Below, piece by piece: positions 36,009-56,970 of a DNA stretch of 64,000 nucleotides. The position numbers and the translations under genes are program-made. Source of the DNA: Sinosporangium siamense. Lineage in GTDB: Bacteria > Actinomycetota > Actinomycetes > Streptosporangiales > Streptosporangiaceae. The stretch spans positions 1-64,000 of the forward strand of contig NZ_BOOW01000038.1 in the NCBI RefSeq assembly GCF_016863435.1, given 5' to 3'. The notes beneath the pieces were generated by a model that was not told where the DNA came from, did not search any database, and worked only from the letters and a program-made list of their open reading frames with translations. Numbering within the stretch: the stretch's first letter is position 1; each line of letters starts with the position of its first letter.

Positions 36009-36188
36009 AGGGCATCGCAGAACATAGCCAGGCGGGCATCCTGCATAGATGGATGTCGTGTCACGAGCTGAGCCAGTGTGAGTGGAGCCGTTCACAGGGC
36101 TGCCCATGAGCCGGTCCGAGCGGCTGCTGCACGCGATGCGGGAGCGTAGCGGCGACAGACCGAGCCGGCTCTATGAGGCCCTTCGGTC

Positions 36189-36378
36189 ATGGTCGTCCAG
36201 ATTTACCTTCAGCACATCCACGCGACGACGCTCCTACTCGCCGGCGTCCCCGTTCACGTGGTCGCGGCCCACCTCGGACACGCCGACCCCGCGATCATTC
36301 TCCAGGTCTACCGCCCATGTGATCCGGGCGACCAAAGCCTCGGCGGCGGACATCTTCACAAAGACCGTCGGCGACTAG
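36189..36378 (+). pseudogene. integrase 3' remnant of an earlier element
   Basis: HIHATTLLLAGVPVHVVAAHLGHADPAI matches the C-terminal catalytic segment of the intact integrase at 55574-56794 almost residue for residue. The box Arg (HDLRH) is Gln here (LQH), a one-base insertion near 36312 moves the frame, and the tail RATKASAADIFTKTVGD continues in the other frame to a stop at 36378. The N-terminal 85% is missing. It is directly followed by an att copy, as in the intact element. Confidence 0.9.
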
Positions 36379-36415
36379 GCCGCGAGCCCTGCTAGCAAGA
36401 TCTCGATTCAGCCAA

Positions 36416-36516
36416 GAAACACTAAGGCCCGTGACCGGCGTTTCGCCTGTTCACGGGCCTTCTTATGTGGCGCGGCCGAGAGGACTCGAACCCCTAACCT
36501 TCTGATCCGTAGTCAG
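36416..36516. repeat. attL (left 101-bp direct repeat)
   Basis: Identical base for base to 56843-56943. The right 49 bp (36468-36516) equal the 3' half of tRNA-Arg from the CCA end through the anticodon loop; identity ends exactly there, as expected for a crossover in the anticodon stem-loop. The left 52 bp include a shared hairpin. Beyond 36516 the sequence no longer forms a tRNA. Confidence 0.95.
36424..36461. terminator. hairpin within attL
   Basis: AAGGCCCGTGA and TCACGGGCCTT form a perfect 11-bp stem around a 16-base loop that itself contains a small GGCG/CGCC stem. It sits downstream of the integrase remnant, as its twin does after the intact int gene, and probably terminates transcription from both sides. 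Confidence 0.75.
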
Positions 36517-36644: not shown

Positions 36645-37164
36645 TTGGATCGCATGCTCGCCGAGAGCACCGGAACCGGGGCTGAATCCATCGCTACCGC
36701 GTACCGAGAGTGACGGCACCAGCGAACGGTAGGAGCGCAAGTTGCCGCTTAGGGCCTTCAGGCGGGGCCCACTCCACAGGTGAAATGACTATCGGGACGG
36801 CTTCGACGCTAACCGTAAACGTCTTGAACGTCTCTCAAACGCGGTGGCCCCGCCACTCCTCAACGGCAACGATCGCTACCAGTTCAACCGACGTCTAGTG
36901 CTGCGGAAACTAAGGACTGCCGGCAGTCGACGACTCGCCCTGAACCTGGCTTCCTACCACGGGACCACCCAGCTGACTTGACGTCGGTATTCACGGTCAC
37001 GAGACAAGGAGTGCAGCAATGGAACGGCTTGACCGGCAACGACAGTGCGTTCGCTACATCCAGGTCCTTCACAGGCTGCCTTGCGCGGGAACGAGTCTTC
37101 GAGCGCACTTCCAGGCGCTTTCCAGCAAGGGCGCCTCTTACCAGCTCGCCAAGCCGGCGGCGTC
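36645..37164. other. gap inside element, no supported gene
   Basis: About 520 bp between the arm sites and the first cargo gene. Short frames on both strands lack ribosome binding sites and family resemblance. The sequence is slightly less GC-rich than the flanks and may contain the promoter for the gene at 37165. Confidence 0.35.
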
Positions 37165-37665
37165 ATGAGAGCGGTCGGGGTCGGGTGGGGTGAGCATCCC
37201 TGGCCGACGAGGATCCGACGTCGAGACTCGTGCTTTCGCCGTATAGACGTACCGGGTTCACCGGTTGATGTGGGGGTGGTGCGGCGCTGGGTGCAGGGAC
37301 TGCTGATTCTGCACGGGGTCGGGAGCGAAGTCATCGAGGTGGCGGTGCTTCTGGTGAGCGAGCTGGTGGCGAACGCGGTGGTCCACTCCTGCTCCCGCCA
37401 CGGTGAGGTCACGGTGCTGCTGAAGGCGGACCGAGAGCGCGGCCGAATCCGTCTGGACGTGATCGACGACGGCCCCGCGGTCTCAGTGAGAGCCGTGCAT
37501 AAGAACCAAGAACACGAGGGAGGCCGGGGACTGTTGCTGGTGGAGGAGCTGGCCGACCGGTGGGGCTGCTACCCCGACGAGGACGGAACCGGCGTGTGGT
37601 TCGAGCTTGAGTCCTCCTGGTCAACTGGATGCCGGATGACGGTAGTGGGCGATGCACGCGGATAA
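37165..37665 (+). CDS. HATPase-fold ATP-binding protein (anti-sigma-kinase-like)
   Basis: 166 residues from ATG at 37165; the frame is open further upstream without a good start. It is a single HATPase_c_3 domain: N box VAVLLVSELVANAVVHS, G1 box LDVIDDGPA, G2 box GGRGLLLVEELADRWG, FELE. Proteins of this RsbW/SpoIIAB-like type are very common in actinomycetes and act as anti-sigma kinases or regulators. The next gene starts before its stop (14-bp overlap), so the two are co-translated. Confidence 0.85.
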   Translation: MRAVGVGWGEHPWPTRIRRRDSCFRRIDVPGSPVDVGVVRRWVQGLLILHGVGSEVIEVAVLLVSELVANAVVHSCSRHGEVTVLLKADRERGRIRLDVIDDGPAVSVRAVHKNQEHEGGRGLLLVEELADRWGCYPDEDGTGVWFELESSWSTGCRMTVVGDARG

Positions 37666-38233
37666 AGTCACGGCATCGCCAGCAACGAACACACCGGTGT
37701 TCAAGGACGCTCGGGGCCGACCGTTCGTCCCGCCAACCGGCATGGACGACCCCCGGCTACTGCTGGCGGCATACCGGCTCCGTCCTGATGGCATGATTTG
37801 GCGGCGGCTGTTCCCTTGCCGGCCTGAACAAGCCCGACACGTCAGGGCATTCGTGCGCACCATGATGCAGGACCTCCCCCTTATCGACGACGCGGTGGCC
37901 GTCGTATCGGAGCTGGTCAATGTGGCGGTGACACGCAATGAAGGCAGGCCGTACTTCACCTCCTTCATAGTGGAGGTTCAGCGGTACGGCCGACACGGGG
38001 AGCACTCGCGGGTGACCGTCTATGACTGCGGCCCTACCGGGATCCCCACCTTCAGAGAACGGCACAACACCGCTCAAGACGAGCCCGTTCCGGACACCAC
38101 AGACGGACTTGCCCTACTGATCCTCCACGGCCTGGCCGATGCGGTGGGGTACTGGGACGGCCCGCACGGCACACCGACTTACCCGATGCGGGCTGAGTTC
38201 CCTGACCACCGTCTCTTGGATGGCGGCCCCTGA
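37652..38233 (+). CDS. divergent HATPase-like partner protein
   Basis: 193 residues. It keeps the layout of the upstream gene in weakened form: VAVVSELVNVAVTRNEG in place of the N box, TVYDCGPTGIP for G1 and GLALLILHGLADAVGYW for G2. The catalytic/Mg-binding Asn pattern is degenerate, so ATP binding is doubtful. Overlap with the preceding gene suggests a heteromeric pair in which this subunit is regulatory. Function unknown. Confidence 0.6.
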   Translation: MHADKVTASPATNTPVFKDARGRPFVPPTGMDDPRLLLAAYRLRPDGMIWRRLFPCRPEQARHVRAFVRTMMQDLPLIDDAVAVVSELVNVAVTRNEGRPYFTSFIVEVQRYGRHGEHSRVTVYDCGPTGIPTFRERHNTAQDEPVPDTTDGLALLILHGLADAVGYWDGPHGTPTYPMRAEFPDHRLLDGGP

Positions 38234-41235: not shown

Positions 41236-43140
41236 GTGACTCTCGTCTTAGCGCTTGCCTCAGAGCATCAGCTGCACATGACCTGCGATTTTAAATTAAC
41301 CGACGCAAGGACCGGTAAGCCATTAACTTACAACGCTCACAAATTAATATCCGTTCGAAGTTCCACACTACAGGCCATCGTTGGATTCACCGGGATTGCA
41401 ACGTTCGGACGAGAGCCTGTGGGGGTGTGGATTGCCAGGAAAGTAGCAGAGCTTCCCGATAAAGCCGATCTCGACGCACTTATAGCAGCATTGCGCCAAG
41501 CATCGAGTCAGCTGGAAAAGTTGCCGAGGAGCATATGGAAGTTTAGGCATTTGACATTTGTTGTGGGAGCGATCCAGGGCTCTCAGGCAGTAGTGGCACT
41601 TCTGTCAAACTTCCAAGACTTAAGCGGCCTATTCCTCGACGACAGCTCAGCACCGGAGAGCGACCTCCGGCTGAGTGTAATGCGACCAAGCAAGCCGAGT
41701 CTGATCGTCGCAGGCGAGGTAAGATCTATCCGTAAGGATGAACGCAAGTCGATTGAACGGAGCCTGCGCGCCAATATCGATCAAGAAGTTATTAGAGAAA
41801 GACTTGCCGCTTTGAACAGGAAGGCCGCCCAGCGCACCAATACAGTAAGCCAGGGCTGCCACTCTGGGAGTATTATCGCAACAGGAAGCGGTGCGTCACA
41901 GGCATTTTTAGTTGAACAGACCGGCGACTTTATCCCTCCTGATATACAGGAGATGTTCAATCGAGTTGGCCTCAAGCTCAACAGAGGGAAGCTGCCAGAT
42001 GGATCGCCCGCACCGATAGTAGTGAGGGGCGCTACTTCCTATAGCTATTCTCCCTCTCCCAGCTATTTTCGCGAACAATTCAAGCTTCGACCAAACGACT
42101 CGGAGCTCTGGAACAATTTTGGCGCCTATGAGGATCATCAAGGTCGCACCGAGTCCGCCCGTACGGCATTTCAGAAAGCCTTAGAACTCAAACCAGACAA
42201 CTTCATCGCGGCGCGGAACCTCGGCTCCCTGGTGTGGAGGGTAGACGGCAACCGCGAAGAAGCCCGGCGCCTGTTCGACATTGCCCTAACCGATCCGGAG
42301 GACAGTTGGCGCCGTACCACCTTGGCTTACTTCGCTGAAGCCGTCTTGCACTTTGAGGGCGATGTTCAAGCTGCCCATGAAACGTACAAATCGGCAGTCG
42401 AAGGAGAGTTCGTAGCGTGGATCGCGGCTAAGTATGCATGGTTCCTCCTCCAGTACAAGCCGGCGTTGATCGAGGAAGCACGGAATCTAATAGATGAATC
42501 ACTGAAGCAGGACCCTCATCTCGCTTGGGCCCTCCTAGGGAAGGCCCAGTGCCTATGGCATCTTGATCGAGACCCAGACGCTGCTTTCCGCATGCTATTG
42601 GACTACCTACCTAGATTCGAGAAAGACATAACTTTTCTCGCTTCCACACTCCACATGAGCCTCGTGTCGCAACACCTTGCTGCTGCTGAAGAGCTGCTGG
42701 CACAGTTGACCCGCTCGAAAGATGCCGCCGAAGACATCAAGATATCGTTTAAAGGTATACTCGATTTATGTCAGGGGAAAAGCCTTGACGTGGCAGCTGC
42801 AAGCTTCATTGCATCAGAAGCCGAAACTGATTTAATCAACCTAGCCGCCGTTAGGTGGTCGCAAGGTAGGGACGCGGAAGGGCGCGAAGCTCTCGATAAT
42901 ATCAGAGGAGAACACCTTACTGCTGGCGCTTATGCCGAACTCGTAATTACCAAGGATCTAGTCGAGGGTACATCTTTCGACGCTATTACATCTACCCTGC
43001 AAGAGCTCATCTCTTCGAGACGTATTGCCGTATTCGATCCCACTCTGTTTAGAGGTCTCGCAAATCACGCCGATGTTGATCCGGAGATCAAACTAAAACT
43101 AAGCACGCTACTTAGAGTGATCAATGAAGCCCAAGTGTAA
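41236..43140 (+). CDS. proteasome/HslV-like Ntn-hydrolase domain fused to TPRs
   Basis: 634 residues from GTG. After Met removal Thr1 would be exposed: TLVLALASEHQLHMTCDFKL aligns with proteasome-beta/HslV N-termini, with Asp at position 17 and a Lys at 35 (NAHKL) near the expected Lys33, then LQAIVGFTGIATFG. Strands such as LTFVVGAIQGSQAVVALLSNF and a GCHSGSIIATGSGASQAFLVE segment complete an Ntn-like domain (about 1-240). Residues about 285-470 carry roughly four TPRs (LWNNFGAYEDHQGRTESA). GC is far lower than neighbours, with several TTA codons (the first is codon 5), indicating foreign origin. Catalysis and role are inferred; no known family name applies. Confidence 0.6.
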   Translation: MTLVLALASEHQLHMTCDFKLTDARTGKPLTYNAHKLISVRSSTLQAIVGFTGIATFGREPVGVWIARKVAELPDKADLDALIAALRQASSQLEKLPRSIWKFRHLTFVVGAIQGSQAVVALLSNFQDLSGLFLDDSSAPESDLRLSVMRPSKPSLIVAGEVRSIRKDERKSIERSLRANIDQEVIRERLAALNRKAAQRTNTVSQGCHSGSIIATGSGASQAFLVEQTGDFIPPDIQEMFNRVGLKLNRGKLPDGSPAPIVVRGATSYSYSPSPSYFREQFKLRPNDSELWNNFGAYEDHQGRTESARTAFQKALELKPDNFIAARNLGSLVWRVDGNREEARRLFDIALTDPEDSWRRTTLAYFAEAVLHFEGDVQAAHETYKSAVEGEFVAWIAAKYAWFLLQYKPALIEEARNLIDESLKQDPHLAWALLGKAQCLWHLDRDPDAAFRMLLDYLPRFEKDITFLASTLHMSLVSQHLAAAEELLAQLTRSKDAAEDIKISFKGILDLCQGKSLDVAAASFIASEAETDLINLAAVRWSQGRDAEGREALDNIRGEHLTAGAYAELVITKDLVEGTSFDAITSTLQELISSRRIAVFDPTLFRGLANHADVDPEIKLKLSTLLRVINEAQV

Positions 43141-43977
43141 CTATCTATGCCGTTGACCACCTGGGACACGAGAGACGCAAGTCAACCCACCGCCAGAGCA
43201 GCGTGCGAGATGGCTATTTCGGACAGAGGTATGATCCGACACTTTGGCCAAATTGGATCTTCTTGATGTAGCAGACGAAGAAGTGCTGCTGCTTCGCCTT
43301 CAGTCGGACCTTTCGACTTCTGAGACATTTGCCGTGTCTCGAGTCAACGGTAGGCATGAGTCTGAAGATGTGACCTGAATAAATCACGCAAACAGGGTTT
43401 GCAGGAAATAGAGAAATAGTCTTGTTGGTAAACACAGCACAGGGCGACTATGTGGCGGATATTGCGCATTGACAGCCCGAGCTGTAGCCAGTCTAAGATC
43501 CATGCTGCCTAAGATCGCCTAACAAGGTGATTGGATTGTGAAGCGGAGAGTACGACCTATGCAGACGGCACCCGCCACTGCGCCCCCTCCCCACTATCAT
43601 TCAGCACGTGGTGGAGCCTCATCCCGAGACGACGACTCGGGATACGCCAGAGACGGTCTCGCCTCCTCACCACAGGTTTTGCATGATGCCGCTCCACAGC
43701 GTTCGAGGACAGGGCATGAGGGACGAATGCCTTGTCGACGGTCGCCCTTCACCCGTGACTGCCGAATCCCGTGGCGACCGTAACGCCCACTGGCAGACAC
43801 GTACAGGATGCAGTTGCATCTACGGCGCCTGCCCTATCAGGAGTCTCTACGGCCCTTGTGTGCAGGCAGATCTTTCGACCTGCACAATGCGAGAACAGGT
43901 TGTGTGGCGCGGTTTCATGGGTTTGCGATTAGGTAACGGAGCGCGTGCGCGCTGCTCGGGATGCCTACACAGAAGGT
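43141..43977. other. 837-bp low-GC gap between cargo genes
   Basis: No gene can be supported. A GTG-started frame from 43608 runs into the next gene in another frame but has a disordered, Cys-rich translation; a minus-strand frame at 43214-43435 is AT-rich and basic. The stretch likely contains the promoter of the STAND gene. Confidence 0.35.
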
Positions 43978-46698
43978 ATGGGCTTGTGGTGGTGGATACG
44001 TGGAGCGCTCGGTGCGATGACCTGTGCTGGTGCAGCGGCTGGGATCGCGGCACTCACCGATGGCAAGGGGTGGCTGCCGATAGCTGGTGCCTTCCTAGGC
44101 GCAGTTGGAGCCTTGTTGGCGCCATTGCTGCTAGAGCGGTGGCGGACGCAGCGTGCGGCGCACTCGGCTCTCGAGCGCCTCGCGGAACTTGGTCCCAACA
44201 GTGCGCCGGCGCTGCTGCTGAACGCGTCAGAGGCAGTGGTGCCGTTCACTGGGCGGGACAGGGAGCTTGCCGAGCTGCTGGCCTGGTGCTCCGATCCAGA
44301 TGCGGGGCGGTTGCGGCTGCTGGTGGGGCCGGGCGGGGTCGGCAAGTCGCGGCTCGCTGCGGAGCTGGCGCGGCAGCTGGACCGTTCGTGGAGGTTTCTG
44401 CCGGTTGCGGATGAGGCTGAGGCCGAGGTGCTGTCCCGACTGCGGGAGGTGAGTGGAGGGCGGCTGCTGCTGGTGGTGGACTACGCCGAGACCAGGACCG
44501 GGCTGGCCTCTCTGCTGAACGAGGCAGCGGCCGATGAGGGCCGACAGGTGCGGGTGCTCCTGGTCGCGCGCAGTGCCGGGGAGTGGTGGCGGCAGCTGGG
44601 CGGGCAATCGGCGCGGGTGCGACAGATGGTGGCGGCGGCCGGTCAGGGCATCGTGCTGACCGAGCAGGTGGGTGACGGCATTTCGGATATCGAGTTGGTA
44701 CTGGGGGCGGTCCCGTACTTCGCGCAGCGGCTGGGGGTGGAGATACCGACCGGGGTGAAGGTGGAGCCGGGTGTGGGGCCGCATCGGGTTTTGGATCTGC
44801 ATGCAGCGGCGCTGGTGGCAGTGCTGCGTTCGATACAGCACGGCAGTGATGGTGCAGGCGCGATCAGCGTGGGGATGGGGGATGTGCTGGAGGAGCTGCT
44901 GGGGCATGAGCGGCGGTTCTGGTTGCGGAGCGCTCAGGCGCGGGGGTTCACTGGCGGTGTCGATGGGTTGAGTGCACTGGTGGTGGAGCAGACAGTTGCG
45001 GTGGGGACTCTGCTGGGAGCACACAGCCGGGCTGAGGCGGTGAAGCTGGTGGGGCGGGTTCCGGATGGCACGGTGTCGGGGGCGGTGGCCGACTGGTTGC
45101 GGGAGTTATATCCCCCCCAAGCGGGTGACGGGCGCGAGTGGTTCGGGCAGTTGCGGCCGGATCGGTTGGCGGAGCTGCACGTGACGCGGCAGTTGAGCGA
45201 TTCGCCAGCGCTGTTGATGGGCTGTCTTGAGGGGTTGGACGGGTACCGGGAGCGACGCGCCTTAATGATGCTGGCGCGGGCCGCGCAAGAGCTGGATGAA
45301 GCCAGGGAGATCTTGCATCGCCTGCTTCCAGAGTTGGCCAATGAGGTGGGTGGCCTCATTGCATCTCGGGAGACTCTGAGGGCGTTACACGATGCACTGC
45401 CGTCCCGTTCGCTGATCTTGGGTGGGGCTCGCGTGCTGCTGGCTAAACGGTTGCTGGATAGCGTTCCGGACAAGGAAGATGTCGCGGAGAAGGCGCACTG
45501 GCTGGATGCACTTGTTGTACACCTTTCGCATGTAGGCCACTTGTTTGATGCTCTGGCCGCAGCCAGGGAAGCCGTCACTATTTATCGAGAGCTGGCCAGA
45601 CTCGATCCCGACCGCCACTACGCAGACCTCGCCCACTCCCTAGCAAACCTCGGTGCCTGCCTGTCAGAGCTCAATCATCCAGCCGAAGCTCTGGCTGTAG
45701 CCAGGGAAGCCGTCACCATCAGCCGAGAGCTGGCCAGACTCGATCCCGACCGCCACCGCGCAGACCTCGCCGACACTCTACACATGCTCGGCAACTGCTT
45801 GTCAGAGCTCAATCATCCAGCTGAAGCTCTGGCCGCAGCCCAGGAAGCAGCCACTATTTATCGAGAGCTGGCCAGAGTCGACGCTGACCGCCATCGCGCA
45901 GACCTAGCCCGCTCCCTTGCAAACCTCAGCATCTATCTCTCGGCTATTGGCAATAACGCGAAAGCTCAATCCCCAGCCAAGGAAGCAGCCACTATTTATC
46001 GAGAGCTGGCCAGACTCAATCCTGACCGCCATCGCGCAGACCTAGCCCGCTCCCTTGCAAACCTCAGCATCTATCTCTCGGCTATTGGCAATGACACGGA
46101 AGCTCTGGCCGCGGCCAGGGAAGCCGTCACCATCAGCCGAGAGCTGGCTAGGCTTCACCCCGATCGTCACCGCGCGCTCCTTGCCGACACCCTAAACATC
46201 CTCGGCAACCGCTTGTCAGAGCTCAATTATCCAGCCGAAGCTCTGGCCGCAGCGAGGGAAGCCGTCACCATCAGCCGAGAGTTGGCCAGACCCAACCCCG
46301 ACCGCCACGGCGCAAACCTCGCCCACTTCCTATACAACCTCGGTTTCCACTTATCGAAGGTGGGTCGTTTAGCTGAAGCCATAACTGCTGAACAGAGAGC
46401 TGTCACCATCCGCCGAAAGCTGGCTAGGCTCGATCCCGACCGCCACCGCGCAGACCTCGCCCACACCCTAAACAACCTCGGCTGCCATCTGTTGCAGGTG
46501 GACCGCCTAGTCGAAGCCCTGCCTGCTTCCAAGAAAGCTGTCACCATCTATCGAGAGCTGGTTAGACAAGACCCCGACCGCTACCGATACGACCTTGCTT
46601 ATTCCCTTTACAATCTCAGCTATATCTGCGTAGAAGACGATTCAGCTGAAGCTGACAAACTGACCGAAGAAGCGAATCATCTTCTAGATGAGGGTTGA
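43978..46698 (+). CDS. membrane-anchored STAND-type ATPase with TPR array
   Basis: 906 residues from ATG at 43978. Two hydrophobic helices (about 5-25 and 33-52) anchor the N-terminus. A GRDRELAELL motif precedes Walker A GPGGVGKS (117-124) and Walker B GRLLLVVDYAE (Asp168), followed by VLLVARSAGEWWR (sensor-like Arg), as in STAND/NACHT-like signal-transduction ATPases. Residues about 521-888 are eight 46-residue TPR units. Such proteins sense a ligand through the repeats and oligomerise; several are antiphage sensors. No effector domain is recognisable, so membrane action or a partner such as the Ntn-TPR protein is possible. Confidence 0.75.
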   Translation: MGLWWWIRGALGAMTCAGAAAGIAALTDGKGWLPIAGAFLGAVGALLAPLLLERWRTQRAAHSALERLAELGPNSAPALLLNASEAVVPFTGRDRELAELLAWCSDPDAGRLRLLVGPGGVGKSRLAAELARQLDRSWRFLPVADEAEAEVLSRLREVSGGRLLLVVDYAETRTGLASLLNEAAADEGRQVRVLLVARSAGEWWRQLGGQSARVRQMVAAAGQGIVLTEQVGDGISDIELVLGAVPYFAQRLGVEIPTGVKVEPGVGPHRVLDLHAAALVAVLRSIQHGSDGAGAISVGMGDVLEELLGHERRFWLRSAQARGFTGGVDGLSALVVEQTVAVGTLLGAHSRAEAVKLVGRVPDGTVSGAVADWLRELYPPQAGDGREWFGQLRPDRLAELHVTRQLSDSPALLMGCLEGLDGYRERRALMMLARAAQELDEAREILHRLLPELANEVGGLIASRETLRALHDALPSRSLILGGARVLLAKRLLDSVPDKEDVAEKAHWLDALVVHLSHVGHLFDALAAAREAVTIYRELARLDPDRHYADLAHSLANLGACLSELNHPAEALAVAREAVTISRELARLDPDRHRADLADTLHMLGNCLSELNHPAEALAAAQEAATIYRELARVDADRHRADLARSLANLSIYLSAIGNNAKAQSPAKEAATIYRELARLNPDRHRADLARSLANLSIYLSAIGNDTEALAAAREAVTISRELARLHPDRHRALLADTLNILGNRLSELNYPAEALAAAREAVTISRELARPNPDRHGANLAHFLYNLGFHLSKVGRLAEAITAEQRAVTIRRKLARLDPDRHRADLAHTLNNLGCHLLQVDRLVEALPASKKAVTIYRELVRQDPDRYRYDLAYSLYNLSYICVEDDSAEADKLTEEANHLLDEG
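45538..46641 (+). repeat. 138-bp coding tandem repeat, 8 units
   Basis: Eight units of 46 codons each, consensus xPAEALAAAREAVTIxRELA then RLDPDRHRADLAxxLxxLGxxLSELN. Units 3 and 4 share a stretch of about 70 identical bases exactly 138 bp apart (45886 and 46024), which points to recent duplication or gene conversion within the array. Confidence 0.9.
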
Positions 46699-46896: not shown

Positions 46897-47625
46897 TCAC
46901 GAAGGTGATGGCTCAGCCCTGGACCAGATGCGTTCGTAGCTCTTCAGGTAGGTGATCGCCGCACCATCAGCCGTGGTGGCGTTGAGGTGCATGACGGGTG
47001 CTTTAGAAGCAGGGACCCCGTATACATGCGGGTTAACGAGCAGGTTGCTGTCTGCGCGGTAGATCGAGGCGTAGAGGACGGTTTGGTGTAGGCGAAGCTC
47101 GACGCCCTTCACCTCAGCGAGGGAGCGGTACAGGGTGAGTGCGTTGTGCACCCGGGCGGTCATGACATCGGAGCCGATGCCTTCCTCTTCGCCCCGGGCA
47201 GCGACGGTGGGGCTGTCAGGGGCGCCCAAGAGAAGCCGGACGTGCACGCCGGCTCGGGCCTGATCGGCGAGAAGGTGGAGAAGCCCGGTGTCTTCGGCGA
47301 GGAACAGGCCGCTGTAGACCAGGATGGCGATGTCCTCTTTCGCCGCTGCGAAGAAGCGTCGCCATACGGTACGGGGGACGGCCCATCTGTGAGGGTAGAC
47401 CGCCTGGATCTCAGGAGGCATAGCCCGCTGGCGTGGAGCAAGTTCGGGCCACAGGGCACGCTCGTCGGTTTTGAGGAGGTCGGCGACGGCTCGGCGGTGG
47501 CGGGGGTGCGGTGTGCGGCCGTGAATCCAGCGCTCAACGGTTTTGGGGTCGACGGCGATGTGCGCGGCTACGTCGGTGGCTCGGAGGTGTGCTCTGATCA
47601 TCGCACTGCGCAGGTTCTCGTTCAT
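46897..47625 (-). CDS. XRE-type regulator with PLD-like C-terminal domain (copy 1)
   Basis: 242 residues from ATG at 47625. The N-terminal HTH reads LRATDVAAHIAVDPKTVERWIHG. The C-terminal domain has WRRFFAAAKEDIAILVYSGLFLAEDTG, VHVRLLLGAPDS and LRLHQTVLYASIYRADSNLLVN, a phospholipase-D-like fold in which the HxK motif is HQT, so hydrolysis is unlikely and ligand binding likely. A paralogue lies at 49456-50196. A GACGTC-N4-GACGTC motif 45 bp upstream is the probable operator. Confidence 0.75.
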   Translation of the reverse strand: MNENLRSAMIRAHLRATDVAAHIAVDPKTVERWIHGRTPHPRHRRAVADLLKTDERALWPELAPRQRAMPPEIQAVYPHRWAVPRTVWRRFFAAAKEDIAILVYSGLFLAEDTGLLHLLADQARAGVHVRLLLGAPDSPTVAARGEEEGIGSDVMTARVHNALTLYRSLAEVKGVELRLHQTVLYASIYRADSNLLVNPHVYGVPASKAPVMHLNATTADGAAITYLKSYERIWSRAEPSPS

Positions 47626-47669
47626 GAGCGTCTCCAGGGCCGGGCTGGTTGCCTGCGACGCTAACACAA

Positions 47670-49455: not shown

Positions 49456-50196
49456 TCATGACCCTACTGGCGTTGCTCCCGCCCACACCTTCTCGAAGCT
49501 GTCCAGGTAGGTGCTCACCATGGTGCCCCCGGCGACCCGCCGGAGATGCAGCACCGGTGCGTTGCCGGCGCGGGTTCCGTACACATGCGTGTTGACCAGC
49601 AGTTGATCGTCGGCTCGGTAGATCGAGTTGTACAGCACTGTCCGATGCAACCGGATCTCGACGTTCTCCAGCCCCAGCAGGGGGCGGTAGAAGACCAGAG
49701 CGCTCCTGATCTGCGCGGCCATGCTGTCCCCGACGCCCTCGTCCGCGCCTCGCCGCTCCACCTCAGCGCAATCCGGATGTCCGAGGAGAATCCGCACCCG
49801 CACCCCCGCTGCGGCCTTCTCCTCAAGCAGGCGGACCAGACCCGCGTCGTCGGCGAGGAACAAACCGCTGTAGACCAGGACACCGATGTCCTGCGACGCG
49901 TCGGCGAAGAGCCGCTCCCACACCTCTCGTACGACGATCCAGCGGTGAGGGTAGATGGTGACGATCTCGCTCTCCGAGGCCGACACGACCTGCTCACGGC
50001 TGAGAGCCCTCGGCCACAGGTACGACTCGTCCACGCCGAGTAGTGAGGCAACGGCGAACCGGTGTTTGCGGTACGGCTCGCGGTCTTTGGTGATCCACCG
50101 TTCGACGGTCTTGGGGTCCACACCGATCGCCTCCGCCAGGGCGGCGACGCTCATGCCCCTGGCCAACAGTGCCGCGCGCAGCCTCTCGTTCGCCAT
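49456..50196 (-). CDS. XRE-type regulator with PLD-like C-terminal domain (copy 2)
   Basis: 246 residues. The N-terminal HTH (VAALAEAIGVDPKTVERWI) and the C-terminal PLD-like domain (IGVLVYSGLFLADDAGLVRLL, VRVRILLGHPDC, IRLHRTVLYNSIYRADDQLLVN) are colinear with the paralogue at 46897-47625, about half the residues being the same. The HxK Lys is Thr here too. It is upstream of the NUDIX gene and has single GACGTC hexamers 21 and 51 bp before its start. Confidence 0.78.
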   Translation of the reverse strand: MANERLRAALLARGMSVAALAEAIGVDPKTVERWITKDREPYRKHRFAVASLLGVDESYLWPRALSREQVVSASESEIVTIYPHRWIVVREVWERLFADASQDIGVLVYSGLFLADDAGLVRLLEEKAAAGVRVRILLGHPDCAEVERRGADEGVGDSMAAQIRSALVFYRPLLGLENVEIRLHRTVLYNSIYRADDQLLVNTHVYGTRAGNAPVLHLRRVAGGTMVSTYLDSFEKVWAGATPVGS

Positions 50197-51516: not shown

Positions 51517-52813
51517 GGCCCTGCCTGTCGCGCTGATGGTCCTGGTGGCCGGCACAGCCGGACTGCTGGGCTGGCGGCACTGGCACTACCGGTCCTTCTG
51601 GCCGATAGTCGGCTTCCCCCTCGTGGCGATCCACATTCGCGCCACCTGGCGCCGAGTGGCCCTCGGCTGCGGGCTCACCAAGAAGCGACAACGCTGGTGG
51701 TTCACCACCGTCCCCAGCCTGATCGCCTCCACCGGCATCGTTCGAGTACGGCGGCGCTTCCAACGCGTCGCCGTAGACACCAAGCCGTCCATGGGCATCC
51801 CGATGCCGACCCGGTTCGGCTGGCGCGTCACCCTGCACACCCTTGAGGGACAGATCCCCGAAGACTACGCGCAAGCGGCCGAACGCCTTGCCCACTCCTG
51901 GGGCATCCACGCTGTACGCGCCACCTCGCCTCGCCCCGGGCGGGTCGTTCTGACCGCGACCGTGCGCGACCCGCTGGTCGAAGTCAATGACTCGCCGCTC
52001 TCCGTTGAGCTGCTCAAGGTCGCCGTGGGTCGGTTGGAGACCGGTCGGCCATGGGAGATCGACTTCCGCACCGTCCCACACTGGTTGAACGCGGGCGCCA
52101 CCCAATCCGGCAAATCCAACCTGGCGAATGTCCTGCTCATCGGATTGGCGCCGCAACCGGTCGCCCTGGTTGGCTTCGACCTCAAAGGCGGGGTCGAGTT
52201 CACCCCCTACGCACCTCGCCTATCAGCGCTGGCGACATCTCGGGCCGAATCGGTGAGCCTGCTCGATGACCTCGTAGCGCTGATGGCCTCCCGGATGGAC
52301 CTGTGCAGGACGAGCGGCGTTCGCAACGTCTGGCAACTCGGCTCTGCCGTACGACCTGTCCCGATCGTGGTCTTGATCGATGAGCTGGCAGAGCTGTACC
52401 TGATGGCCGACAAGTCCGAGAAGGATCAGATCGCCAAGACCTCTACGGCGATGCTGCGCGTGGCCCAACTCGGGCGGGCGTTCGGGATCTACCTGTTCCT
52501 GTCAGGTCAGCGGATCGGCTCCGACCTCGGCGTCAGTGTCACCGCCTTACGCGCCCAGTGTTCCGGGCGAATCTGCCACCGGGTCAACGATCCTGAGACC
52601 GCGGCCATGACCCTCGGGGACCTCGATCCCTCCGCGCTGATCTCCGCTCGGGCCATTCCCGCAGAAACACCAGGGGTCGCAGTGGTTGCAGGCCAAGACG
52701 GCCGGTGGTCCCGCGCAAGGTCCTTCTTCGTTTCCCAGCAGGCAGCTGAACACGCTGCTCTCACGCACGCCGCTCTCGCCCCTTCCTGGGCGGAGATCAC
52801 AGCAGGCGCCTAG
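51509..52813 (+). CDS. FtsK/SpoIIIE-type DNA translocase (TraB/TraSA-like)
   Basis: 434 residues from TTG at 51509, overlapping the previous stop by 8 bp. Short N-terminal membrane segment (LMVLVAGTAGLLGW), then a RecA-like motor with Walker A AGATQSGKSN, Walker B IVVLIDELAELY and a LFLSGQRIGSDLGVS arginine-finger region. Such proteins move double-stranded DNA between mycelial cells during AICE transfer. Length is slightly under the usual 450-700. Confidence 0.9.
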   Translation: MPEALPVALMVLVAGTAGLLGWRHWHYRSFWPIVGFPLVAIHIRATWRRVALGCGLTKKRQRWWFTTVPSLIASTGIVRVRRRFQRVAVDTKPSMGIPMPTRFGWRVTLHTLEGQIPEDYAQAAERLAHSWGIHAVRATSPRPGRVVLTATVRDPLVEVNDSPLSVELLKVAVGRLETGRPWEIDFRTVPHWLNAGATQSGKSNLANVLLIGLAPQPVALVGFDLKGGVEFTPYAPRLSALATSRAESVSLLDDLVALMASRMDLCRTSGVRNVWQLGSAVRPVPIVVLIDELAELYLMADKSEKDQIAKTSTAMLRVAQLGRAFGIYLFLSGQRIGSDLGVSVTALRAQCSGRICHRVNDPETAAMTLGDLDPSALISARAIPAETPGVAVVAGQDGRWSRARSFFVSQQAAEHAALTHAALAPSWAEITAGA

Positions 52814-53546: not shown

Positions 53547-53945
53547 ATGACCGACCACCGAAAGGCCCTGACCAACGGACTTCGCGACCTGGCCGACTTC
53601 CTCGACAGCAACCCCGGCATCCCCGTCCCCCTGCACGGCGTCCCTATCCACTACTTCCCGCCGACCGCCGACGACGCGGAAATGACCGCTGCAATCGATC
53701 AGATCGCCTCTCTGCTCGGCTCACCGGTTTCTCAGGACTACCACTACAAGACGGGCATCCCCTTCGGCCCCGTCGTCTACGAGGCGATCGCCGTATTCGC
53801 CGCCAAGCGCGCTCAATACGAGGCGGATTCCACCTACTTCGGTTGCGTCACTCCAGATAACGCCGACGCGGCTGCCCAGAGCCACCCGAAGAGTGATCGC
53901 GACGGCGCCACCGGCCGGGACCGCAACAGGATTCGCTCCCGCTAA
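53547..53945 (+). CDS. small conserved AICE protein
   Basis: 132 residues from ATG at 53547 with GAAAGGA upstream; the longer open frame to 53208 is shadow of the DUF2637 gene. NGLRDLADFLDSNPGIPVPLHG and MTAAIDQIASLLGSPV are typical of a small protein found next to Rep in streptomycete elements. Function unknown. C-terminal tail is Arg/Asp-rich and disordered. Confidence 0.65.
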   Translation: MTDHRKALTNGLRDLADFLDSNPGIPVPLHGVPIHYFPPTADDAEMTAAIDQIASLLGSPVSQDYHYKTGIPFGPVVYEAIAVFAAKRAQYEADSTYFGCVTPDNADAAAQSHPKSDRDGATGRDRNRIRSR

Positions 53946-54039
53946 AACCAGGCGCCCCCGGCCTGGCCGCACATCCGCCAAGACGACCGCCAGGTCGGGG
54001 GCCATCCCTCCACCCGAACGAGTGAAAGGAGGTTCCATC

Positions 54040-55395
54040 ATGCCCACAAGCGCCACCAACGCGCACGCAATCCACGGCATGATCGCTCGGCTGAACCACC
54101 CGCAATACGACCGATGGGCCGCCCAGGTACGCAAATGCGGCGGTTGCCGCCAACCTGTCCGCCTACGCGGCAAGGTCGAACACTACGACCGTGCCACCGG
54201 CCGACTCCTCCACCGCTACAGCACACACCTTGAGCCCGACGGCTTCCTTCGTGTCCCCTGCAAAACCCGCCGCGCCTCCCGCTGCCCCGCCTGCGCCGAG
54301 ATCTACCGTGCGGACACCTACCACCTCATCCGTGCCGGCCTGACCGGCGGGAAGGGCGTGCCCGAATCGGTCGCCACCCACCCGTGCCTGTTCGTGACAC
54401 TCACCGCGCCATCCTTCGGCCCCGTTCACACCCACCGCGACGGCAAACCGTGTCGTCCCCGCCGTGATGCGCCCACCTGCCCGCATAGTCGCCTGCTGTC
54501 GTGCATGGCGCGGCACAGCGCTGACGATCCCCGTCTCGGCGAACCGGTCTGCTCCGGGTGCTACGACTACCCGGGCTCCGTTCTGTTCAACTCCGTCGCC
54601 CCGCTGCTGTGGAAGCGGTTCACCGACGCTCTCCGTGGACGCGTGGCCAAACTCATCGGCTCAACGCTGCGCGACTTGCGCCGACTGGTGACGGTCGCCT
54701 TCGCCAAGGTCGCCGAGTTCCAACGGCGGGGTGTCGTCCACCTGCACGCCGTTATCCGCCTCGACGGACCTGACGGCCCCACCTCGACGCCTCGGGCCCG
54801 TGTGGAAACCGAGCTGCTCACACAAGCCGTACGGCAGGCCGCGGGCGCCGTCACCGCCACCATCCCGGCCACGACCGGCCAACCTGCTCGCGTCCTGCGC
54901 TGGGGTGACCAACTAGACGTCCGGCCCATCACCCTCGCTGGAGAACTCACCCGGCAAGCCGTGGCCGGCTACATCGCGAAGTACGCCACCAAGGCGGCCG
55001 AGAGCACCGGCACCCTCGACCGGCGCATTCACCCGCTTGAAGATCTCACCGCGCTAGCCGTCCGTGACCACGTCAGGCGCCTCATCGCCGAATGCTTCCG
55101 GCTGTCGGAGGACGAGAGCCTTGCGCATCTCCGGCTGGCCGAATGGGCTCACATGCTCGGCTACCGCGGCCACTTCTCGACCAGGTCCCGCCACTACTCG
55201 ACCACCCTCGGCGAGATCCGCGTCGAACGCATCGACCACCTCAAGGCCGACGCCGTTGCCGCCAGCCGACTCCCCCACTTCGACGAGGACACCGCGCTCA
55301 AGATCGCATCCTGGACCTACGCGGGTAGCGGACTCTCACCGGGCGAGCAACTGCTGACCGCTTCTCTCACCGGTCACTTCGGGGGGCGCGTGTGA
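54040..55395 (+). CDS. repSA: HUH-type replication initiator (RepSA-like)
   Basis: 451 residues from ATG at 54040 with AAAGGAGG at ideal spacing; the open frame to 53893 is rejected. Two Cys pairs at the N-terminus (CGGCRQPV and RCPACAEIYRAD) suggest zinc binding. The HUH motif is VVHLHAVIRLDG, and the catalytic Tyr is likely in GYIAKYATKAAE. It matches rolling-circle Rep proteins of pSAM2-type AICEs, which replicate the excised circle. The symbol is used for the family, not a proven orthologue. Its stop overlaps xis by 4 bp. Confidence 0.88.
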   Translation: MPTSATNAHAIHGMIARLNHPQYDRWAAQVRKCGGCRQPVRLRGKVEHYDRATGRLLHRYSTHLEPDGFLRVPCKTRRASRCPACAEIYRADTYHLIRAGLTGGKGVPESVATHPCLFVTLTAPSFGPVHTHRDGKPCRPRRDAPTCPHSRLLSCMARHSADDPRLGEPVCSGCYDYPGSVLFNSVAPLLWKRFTDALRGRVAKLIGSTLRDLRRLVTVAFAKVAEFQRRGVVHLHAVIRLDGPDGPTSTPRARVETELLTQAVRQAAGAVTATIPATTGQPARVLRWGDQLDVRPITLAGELTRQAVAGYIAKYATKAAESTGTLDRRIHPLEDLTALAVRDHVRRLIAECFRLSEDESLAHLRLAEWAHMLGYRGHFSTRSRHYSTTLGEIRVERIDHLKADAVAASRLPHFDEDTALKIASWTYAGSGLSPGEQLLTASLTGHFGGRV

Positions 55396-55577
55396 CGCAA
55401 CTCCTCCTGACCGTGCCCCAAGCCGCCCAATCCCTCGGTATCTCCCGCAGCAAGTTCTACGAACTGATCACCTCCGGAACGGTCGCCTCCATCAAGATCG
55501 ACGGCTCGCGACGCGTCCCCGTCTCCTCCCTTCAGGAGTACATCCAAGAACTGCTCACGAAAGGAGCGGCAGCATGA
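55392..55577 (+). CDS. xis: excisionase
   Basis: 61 residues from GTG overlapping the rep stop (GTGA). A MerR-like winged HTH_17: LTVPQAAQSLGISRSKFYEL, VASIKIDGSRRVPVSSLQEYI. Size, fold and position between rep and int identify the recombination directionality factor that, with Int, excises the element. It overlaps int by 4 bp. Confidence 0.9.
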   Translation: MTQLLLTVPQAAQSLGISRSKFYELITSGTVASIKIDGSRRVPVSSLQEYIQELLTKGAAA

Positions 55578-56794
55578 CCAAGCCTCGGGCGATGACTCCT
55601 GACGAGCCGAACAGAAAGCGGAAAGTCGTTCCCAAGCTTCGTGACGGCGTCATGAAACGCGGAGCCACCTGGTCCTACGTCATCCGCGTCAAGGACCCGG
55701 AGACCGGGCTGAGCAGGCCGCGGTGGGTGGGTGGCTTCGCCACAGAGAATGAGGCCAAGGCCGCCCGGGACGAGGCGCGTGTCAGCGCCTATCGTGGTGA
55801 ATACGTCGACCGGAACACCATCACGGTCGGCCAATACCTTGACGAATGGCTCGAAGCACACGCCGTGGCGATCAAGCCGAAGACCCTCAAGGACTACCAG
55901 AACATCGTCACGCGCTACGTCAAGCCGCACATCGGCCTGCTTCGAATGCAGGCCATCCGCCCATCGACGGTCACAAAGCTGTACCGCGACCTGACCAAGC
56001 ACGGCGGGAAGGAAGGACGGGCACTGTCCTCCCGCACAGTCGACTACGTCCACGCCGTCCTCAGAAAGGCATTCCGTGACGCCGTGGAGGTTGACGAGAT
56101 CCTCGTGTCCAGCCCCATCGAAAAGGCCAAACGGCCACGTCGCGAAGTCGGCGAGCCAGGAACGGTGTGGACGACCACGCAGCTTAAGGCGTTTCTCAGA
56201 TCGGCCCGTGAGCACCGGCTGTGGACCTTCTTCCACTTGGCCGCCTACACCGGTGCGCGTCGCGGGGAGCTCCTCCATCTCCGGTGGGCCGATGTCGACC
56301 TCGACGGCAAGCAGATCACCATCACCGGCTCCACGGCCTTCATCGACGGCGAAAGGGTAGAGGGAACCACCAAGAGCGGCCGGAAGCGAATCGTCAGCCT
56401 AGATGCTGCCTCGGTCAAGGTTCTTCGTCTGCAAAAGAAGATGCAGGCCGCTGACAAACTAAAGGCCGGATCCGCATGGCGCGGCTCGACGGACCACGTG
56501 TTCACCACCGGCTGGGGCGAACCGATCCACCCGGACACGGTCAGCTCGCTATTCCCGATCCTGATCAAGCGGCACAACACCACGCATCCCGATGACGAGC
56601 TGCCTCGCGCCCGGCTTCACGACCTCCGGCACATTCACGCGACAACGCTCCTGCTCGCCGGCGTTCCCGTGCATGTGGTCGCGGCCCGTCTCGGCCACGC
56701 CGATCCTGCGATCACACTCCGTGTCTACGCCCACGTGGTCCGGGCGGCCGAAGCGTCGGCGGCCGACGTCTTCGCAAAGGCGATCGGCGACTGA
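55574..56794 (+). CDS. int: tyrosine recombinase/integrase
   Basis: 406 residues. N-terminal arm-binding region, SAM-like core-binding domain (ITVGQYLDEWLEAHAVAIKPKT) and a catalytic domain with Arg in AAYTGARRGELLHLRW, HDLRHIHATTLLLAG (HxxR), LGHADPAI (H) and nucleophile Tyr in LRVYAHV. Complete and colinear with AICE integrases. It recombines attP with the tRNA-Arg 3' end and lies 48 bp from attR. A broken 3' copy exists at 36189-36378. Confidence 0.95.
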   Translation: MTKPRAMTPDEPNRKRKVVPKLRDGVMKRGATWSYVIRVKDPETGLSRPRWVGGFATENEAKAARDEARVSAYRGEYVDRNTITVGQYLDEWLEAHAVAIKPKTLKDYQNIVTRYVKPHIGLLRMQAIRPSTVTKLYRDLTKHGGKEGRALSSRTVDYVHAVLRKAFRDAVEVDEILVSSPIEKAKRPRREVGEPGTVWTTTQLKAFLRSAREHRLWTFFHLAAYTGARRGELLHLRWADVDLDGKQITITGSTAFIDGERVEGTTKSGRKRIVSLDAASVKVLRLQKKMQAADKLKAGSAWRGSTDHVFTTGWGEPIHPDTVSSLFPILIKRHNTTHPDDELPRARLHDLRHIHATTLLLAGVPVHVVAARLGHADPAITLRVYAHVVRAAEASAADVFAKAIGD

Positions 56795-56842: not shown

Positions 56843-56943
56843 GAAACACTAAGGCCCGTGACCGGCGTTTCGCCTGTTCACGGGCCTTCTTATGTGGCGC
56901 GGCCGAGAGGACTCGAACCCCTAACCTTCTGATCCGTAGTCAG
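56843..56943. repeat. attR (right 101-bp direct repeat)
   Basis: Perfect copy of 36416-36516. Its right 49 bp are the 3' half of the intact tRNA-Arg. Directly repeated orientation with attL allows site-specific excision of the 20.4 kb between them. Confidence 0.95.
56851..56888. terminator. hairpin between int and tRNA-Arg
   Basis: Perfect 11-bp stem AAGGCCCGTGA/TCACGGGCCTT with a structured loop, located between the converging int gene and tRNA-Arg, so likely a bidirectional terminator. Confidence 0.78.
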
Positions 56944-56970
56944 ATGCTCTATCCATTGAGCTACGGCCGC
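56895..56970 (-). tRNA. tRNA-Arg (anticodon ACG)
   Basis: 76 nt cloverleaf: acceptor GCGGCCG/CGGCCGC, D arm GCTCAATGGATAGAGC, anticodon stem TCTGA/TCAGA around CTACGGA with ACG at 34-36, T arm AGGGGTTCGAGTCCTCT, G73 and encoded CCA. Its 3' half is the att core, and integration restores the sequence so the gene remains functional. Confidence 0.96.

Follow-up and report, generated by a model that had tools for sequence, protein, structure and literature searches.

In their survey of proteasome-like proteins, Fuchs, Alva and Lupas (2021; PMC8665760) described 22 new families, including DAH (Distant Actinobacterial proteasome Homolog), and for these new homologs they noted no genomic context that would point to a particular function. 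The gene considered here lies on contig NZ_BOOW01000038.1 of Sinosporangium siamense, of which the first 64,000 nucleotides (the window) were analyzed; it occupies positions 41236–43140 of the forward strand and encodes a protein of 634 amino acids, in which a proteasome-like N-terminal nucleophile (Ntn) hydrolase domain, as judged from its predicted fold, is followed by tetratricopeptide repeats (TPRs). There is, in our estimate, an even chance that this Ntn-TPR protein is a propeptide-free N-terminal-threonine hydrolase, which an exchangeable C-terminal module would direct and which would serve in conflict between mobile elements or phages. A sequence-only reading of the window had assigned the protein to a type it could not name; this type can be narrowed to the superfamily surveyed in 2021.

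Fold and active site of the N-terminal domain

The reading frame opens with GTG-ACT (41236–41241), that is, with the initiator methionine and Thr2, the presumed nucleophile. GTG is the first in-frame start codon of an open frame of 644 codons, which means that no propeptide is encoded; for this reason autocatalytic processing is rejected, and with it the “self-processing” of the sequence-only reading. Removal of the methionine by methionine aminopeptidase alone would suffice to expose the threonine. The GTG-Thr start, Asp17 and Lys35 that had been read from the letters are found in the frame exactly as described (without the initiator methionine the residues are Thr1, Asp17, Lys19, and Lys35). 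By eye, no clear Shine-Dalgarno sequence was found before the GTG, and some relatives have one ahead of the equivalent M-T-L start.

For residues 1–270, an AlphaFold2 model was made from six of the seven window-clade sequences (alignment A8; the locus termed L010 below was left out). It has a predicted local distance difference test score (pLDDT) of 79 and a predicted template modeling score (pTM) of 0.79, with ten-residue confidence means of 68–94 up to residue 220, by which the Ntn core is placed at residues 1 to about 225 (41236–41910). The modeled order of N-terminal strands, paired helices, central strands, paired helices, and two last strands fits that of proteasome subunits; the segment GCHSGSIIATG (residues 207–217), which had been proposed as a strand of an Ntn fold, overlaps the predicted strand 208–214. 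When the model was compared with the Protein Data Bank (PDB) by Foldseek, 437 chains matched at E ≤ 0.001 (best E 2.2e-7), and the best 50 of these are all 20S proteasome subunits or Anbu. An Ntn-hydrolase fold, as the sequence-only reading had it, can therefore be assigned to the N-terminal domain with near certainty, as far as a prediction allows.

Fourteen columns are invariant among the seven N-terminal domains of the window clade. In an 11-row alignment of this clade with four proteins of its sister clade there are nine such columns (M1, T2, L3, D18, K36, T52, G53, S124, and N125), and the identical nine are invariant in a 10-row alignment that includes Nymphadora gp30; both alignments together hold 12 distinct sequences, the window protein among them, to which the relatives are 14–28% identical. 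Thr2, Asp18 and Lys36, the residues on which the sequence-only reading had staked its claim, are thus kept in all aligned rows. In an hhalign comparison starting at Thr1, T2, D18 (41287–41289), K36 (41341–41343), and G53 (41392–41394) align with Thr1, Asp17, Lys33, and the oxyanion-hole Gly47 of actinobacterial PrcB, the PrcB alignment being built from those 9 of 20 PF00227 loci that were matched by a start-motif pattern. The score of this match (24.84) was reached by none of 300 column-shuffled profiles, and the reversed profile scored 13.85; the sister-clade alignment A6 matched PrcB at E 0.024. Were the nine invariant columns placed at random among 270, all four catalytic positions would fall among them with P ~6e-7, a rough figure because the rows had been gathered by similarity. 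An N-terminal threonine or serine nucleophile, Asp17, Lys33, Gly47, and the fold are the features of the proteasome-like superfamily in the sense of PMC8665760; the domain has the presumed nucleophile after Met1, the equivalents of the other three residues, and the fold as predicted. It is probable that the domain is catalytically active.

The claim that TPRs follow the N-terminal domain holds as well: they set in at about residue 277–290 (TPR_12, E 5.8e-10, best stretch 285–319), Pfam matches lie within about 277–450, and the helical region extends over residues 275–631 (42058–43128) in a full-length model (pLDDT 69, pTM 0.44; helices from about residue 275). The mutual placing of the N-terminal domain and the TPR part is not predicted, because the linker (residues 227–274, under 50) and pieces of 461–528 are of low confidence.

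Relatives and their C-terminal tails

The N-terminal domain family is rare and patchy. When searched with residues 1–270, the genome of S. siamense has one copy, and 296 genomes of the phylum yielded the loci L002 and L003, plus a weak partial match that was later dropped; the single other genome of the genus gave no match. Within the family (200 genomes), profile A1 led to L009, L010, and L012, the last of these more distant, and to L011, a broken copy; within a sample of the class, L040 and L041 were detected with profile A5. Matches thus amount to 4 of 396 genomes for the phylum, 5 of 200 for the family, and 4 of 394 for the class (where the source genome, L041 with its weak match, and the broken copy are counted in), and each of these counts includes the source genome as well as weak, broken, or sister-clade matches. 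A further family gave matches in 4 of 297 genomes, which all belong to one genus (L050, L051, L052, and the fragment L053). A contig scan confirmed 5 loci (L033–L037) of 21 candidate stretches, three of which encode proteins identical to known ones (L033 to L002, L034 to L009, and L037 to L003); L034 is from Herbidospora cretacea, L035 from Kitasatospora sp. MAA4, and L036 from Streptomyces tateyamensis. Dropped were L053 and two weak partial matches without the N-terminus (L004, E 5.8e-4; L008, E 5.5e-4). L052, which by eye shows M-T-L, D18, NK, and TG, stands outside the alignments, and L011, which has an in-frame TAG, is described only; the 4.7-kb contig of this copy (L046), from another genome of the same family, also carries a partial DDE_3 transposase. 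As the longest open reading frame begins upstream of M-T-L in L002, L003, L009, L010, and L012, the M-T-L start of these was assigned by conservation; L040 and both annotated phage genes start exactly there.

Two clades are apparent, whose profiles match each other with 98.2% probability (E 3e-14). In a tree of 12 N-terminal domains, the split between the window clade and the one that contains the phage proteins has support of 100/99; the window row stands on a long branch, and its grouping with L002 is not firmly resolved. Queries from the window clade had no matches among plasmids, phages, and viral contigs, nor did sister-clade alignment A7 among viral contigs; alignment A6 of the same clade found three loci there (L042–L044). 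Upstream of the sister-clade gene L040, and divergent from it, is a TIR-domain gene (L047:5714–6556; PF13676, E 1.4e-8).

The domain occurs with three kinds of tails. TPRs follow it in the window protein and in L002, which stems from a metagenome-assembled genome (MAG); the two tails match each other by BLASTP at E 4e-8. HAF-like repeats follow it in L003 and L010, whose tails are homologous at E 2e-22; TIGR02913 is matched by L003 at E 2.9e-4 (20.7 bits, under the cut-off of 22.65) and was not found in L010. The tree pairs these two proteins, which are from different classes, at 89/93, below the threshold of 95. L009, L035, and L036, each of 287 amino acids, have no tail.

Among phages, the top Foldseek match of the N-terminal domain model in BFVD is gp30 of the Gordonia phage Nymphadora (E 4.3e-12, TM 0.67 by query). 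Six Gordonia phages (9 records) have a gene of the Nymphadora type and three (6 records) one of the CarolAnn type. The Nymphadora gene (gene 30) comes directly after two minor tail genes (28 and 29), and the integrase of this phage is gene 39. The CarolAnn gene (gene 36) is situated, among hypothetical genes, in the interval from the minor tail gene (31) to the integrase gene (40).

The integrative element

The Ntn-TPR gene sits within an element of about 20.4 kb, bounded by exact 101-bp att repeats (36416–36516 and 56843–56943), the right one overlapping the 3′ part of a tRNA-Arg gene (56895–56970). On the forward strand the element encodes a tyrosine integrase (55574–56794; PF00589, E 5.8e-23), the pSAM2-type replication initiator RepSA (53893–55395; PF20199, E 8e-157), and an FtsK/SpoIIIE-family protein, presumed to be the transfer protein (51536–52813; PF01580, E 5.6e-25); DUF2637, NUDIX, and GntR genes are also present. 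A replication protein (Rep), an FtsK-like transfer protein (Tra), an integrase, and att repeats at a tRNA gene, together with NUDIX and GntR genes, are typical of actinomycete integrative and conjugative elements (AICEs); with all of the first four in place, the element is a pSAM2-like AICE, and the Ntn-TPR gene is its cargo, outside the backbone. The foreign origin that had been suspected for this cargo agrees with its GC content (52.2% vs. 65.6% in the rest of the window) and its nine TTA codons.

Other loci of the window clade, judged apart from L035 and L036, which lie on short contigs, are partly in mobile surroundings: a tyrosine integrase gene lies 86 bp from L009, and L010 is flanked by transposase genes and by phage-type amidase and D12-methylase genes.

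Downstream of the Ntn-TPR gene, a P-loop (AAA_16/nSTAND-like) NTPase of 917 amino acids with many TPRs, as recognized by Pfam, is encoded at 43945–46698 (forward strand); it is a candidate conflict gene in its own right. A pairing of the two genes is unsupported, as they are separated by 804 bp and no such gene is near L033, the only other TPR-type locus (by eye; the right flank covered is only ~1.5 kb). A short open reading frame (36082–36415) that ends immediately before the left att repeat resembles, by eye, the C-terminus of an integrase, and the bases preceding this repeat resemble those preceding the right one; in all probability an earlier element at the same site has left this remnant. 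The left end of the element itself holds two adjacent HATPase_c_2 genes (37045–38233), which we take to be anti-sigma-like, and two of its proteins (46897–47667 and 49456–50196) have, by eye, similar N-terminal helix-turn-helix regions, the former with a weak phospholipase D (PLD)-like match (PF13091, E 0.015).

Possible function and relation to known systems

The course of events that we consider most likely is as follows. The proteasome-like Ntn hydrolase would be made without a propeptide, and the host methionine aminopeptidase would remove the initiator methionine, which frees Thr2 as nucleophile; Lys36 and Asp18 would complete the catalytic triad, with Gly53 in the oxyanion hole. The TPR superhelix may recognize a protein, either of an invading phage or element or of the host and altered by the invader, and bring it to the active site, or switch the latter on; the active site would then cleave the recognized protein or a factor associated with it. 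On the pSAM2-like element that carries it, the gene would by itself form a module for exclusion or defence. Of this scheme, the analysis established the predicted fold, the conserved catalytic residues, the fusion, the differing C-termini, and the mobile location; catalysis, a protein substrate, a sensory function of the TPRs, and a role in conflict are inferred from these. That the Ntn-TPR gene has this role we regard as an evenly balanced question, to which the phage relatives lend indirect support.

These relatives are of interest with respect to a defence phenotype. According to Montgomery et al. (2019; PMC6426606), genes 34 to 36 of CarolAnn are expressed in a lysogen, if somewhat below its other lysogenic genes, and the phage has two or more defence systems. 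A plasmid with genes 43–45 had no effect on the phages Woes, Monty, Huffy, Vendetta, UmaThurman, Utz, Blueberry, and Wizard, and the same eight plate at reduced efficiency on the lysogen. The authors name gene 39 as a candidate, gene 36 being one of several, and the terms “gene 36” and “gp36” are absent from the text of PMC6426606. It is tempting to generalize that bacterial and prophage immunity has taken up proteasome-type threonine hydrolases as propeptide-free effectors that act on their own, with recognition set by the tail (TPRs, HAF-like repeats, or none), and that CarolAnn gp36 accounts for the second, unassigned defence activity of its phage; we consider this doubtful.

Several observations weigh against a hydrolase acting in conflict. 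The N-terminal domain went unrecognized in Pfam, where the protein matches only TPRs and chance-level families, as well as in NCBIfam, PHROGs, and the PDB sequences, with the same kind of matches; no model of a known anti-phage system was matched in PADLOC-DB 2.0.0 (0 families at E ≤ 1). The Foldseek TM-scores are modest (in the best 50 rows 0.50–0.67 when normalized by target and 0.42–0.54 by query, with an rmsd of 4.7–10.8). The combined 11-sequence profile matches PrcB weakly (a single pair at E 0.0093, with a probability of 4%), the best of the shuffled profiles (24.03) comes near the real score, and the window clade alone (A5) has no meaningful match to the PrcB profile. The clade of the phage genes is the sister of the window clade, and the residual defence of CarolAnn could be explained by other genes of this phage. 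By eye, no mobile genes are in the covered flanks of L033 and L037; TPRs serve housekeeping scaffolds too; and no activity or phenotype of any family member was found in the literature examined.

Among the alternatives, a non-proteolytic Ntn enzyme fares best, though it seems unlikely: the protein could be a connectase-like ligase or transpeptidase, or a small-molecule amidase, to which the TPRs present a partner protein. Amidases fit Ntn chemistry equally well. A precedent is connectase, a proteasome-like ligase that is monomeric (PMC8665760), and the sister-clade protein L040 weakly matches the N-terminal domain of connectase MJ0548 (E 0.16); however, this match is under the cut-off and spans 24 residues, L040 also weakly matches the PHROG “peptidase HslV family” (E 0.057), and helices H1–H2, which follow the first strands of the sheet and which connectase is said to lack (PMC8665760), are predicted in the window protein. 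Somewhat less probable is a factor of AICE maintenance or transfer, responsible, for example, for the turnover of Rep, Tra, or a repressor: the location of the gene inside the AICE is in keeping with it, but relatives are found elsewhere (on two MAG contigs, at a locus flanked by phage-type genes, and in phage genomes), and GC at third codon positions is 0.54 in the gene vs. 0.79–0.80 in the Rep, FtsK-like, and integrase genes of the element. A catalytically dead scaffold that only binds has a precedent in proteasome alpha subunits, which belong to the superfamily but are inactive (PMC8665760), and the activity presumed for the family is based on sequence and model; we nonetheless think it improbable, since invariance of T2, D18, K36, and G53 at 14–28% identity is hard to explain without catalysis. 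Chance resemblance of an unrelated fold, which the want of any sequence-model match for the domain might suggest, can practically be dismissed, as the predicted fold with its Foldseek matches, the conserved residues, and the shuffle test strongly oppose it.

For the new proteasome homologs, the present set supplies what the earlier survey did not report, namely context: mobile elements, a cargo-like position in phages, differing C-terminal repeats, and a related gene in CarolAnn, in whose lysogen a defence activity has been measured that is not assigned to a gene. Their function can therefore be tested by removing or expressing the gene in a laboratory phage-host pair; if a role of the Ntn-TPR type in defence were true, N-terminal-threonine hydrolysis would enter phage defence. 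Among the literature matches listed, no report of such hydrolysis in phage defence was found and, for some topics on a small share of the matches, no TPR-fused proteasome-like member; a term search found neither “NTN” nor “HslV” in two surveys of conflict systems.

The window protein resembles Anbu and the 20S β subunits in its predicted fold and in the equivalents of Thr1, Asp17, Lys33, and Gly47, and differs from them by its long C-terminal TPR region and by having neither a propeptide nor a match to PF00227, the Pfam Proteasome family. The sequence-only reading had suggested a check against this family; it is absent from the 15 families matched at E ≤ 10, and membership is rejected. The genome has two PF00227 genes, adjacent to each other on another contig (C27), presumably its PrcB and PrcA. 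With DAH, compared by its description (PMC8665760), the protein shares the lack of a propeptide, the actinobacterial and phage distribution, and C-terminal additions; unlike the families of that survey as described in its main text, from which the words “TPR” and “tetratricopeptide” are absent, it carries TPRs. Nymphadora gp30 and CarolAnn gp36 have the same M-T-L start and conserved residues, yet are of the sister clade, lack TPRs, and are annotated as hypothetical only. The element, finally, shares with pSAM2-type AICEs RepSA, the FtsK-family protein, the integrase, the att repeats at a tRNA gene, and the NUDIX and GntR genes, and departs from them in the Ntn-TPR gene, which is cargo and not backbone.
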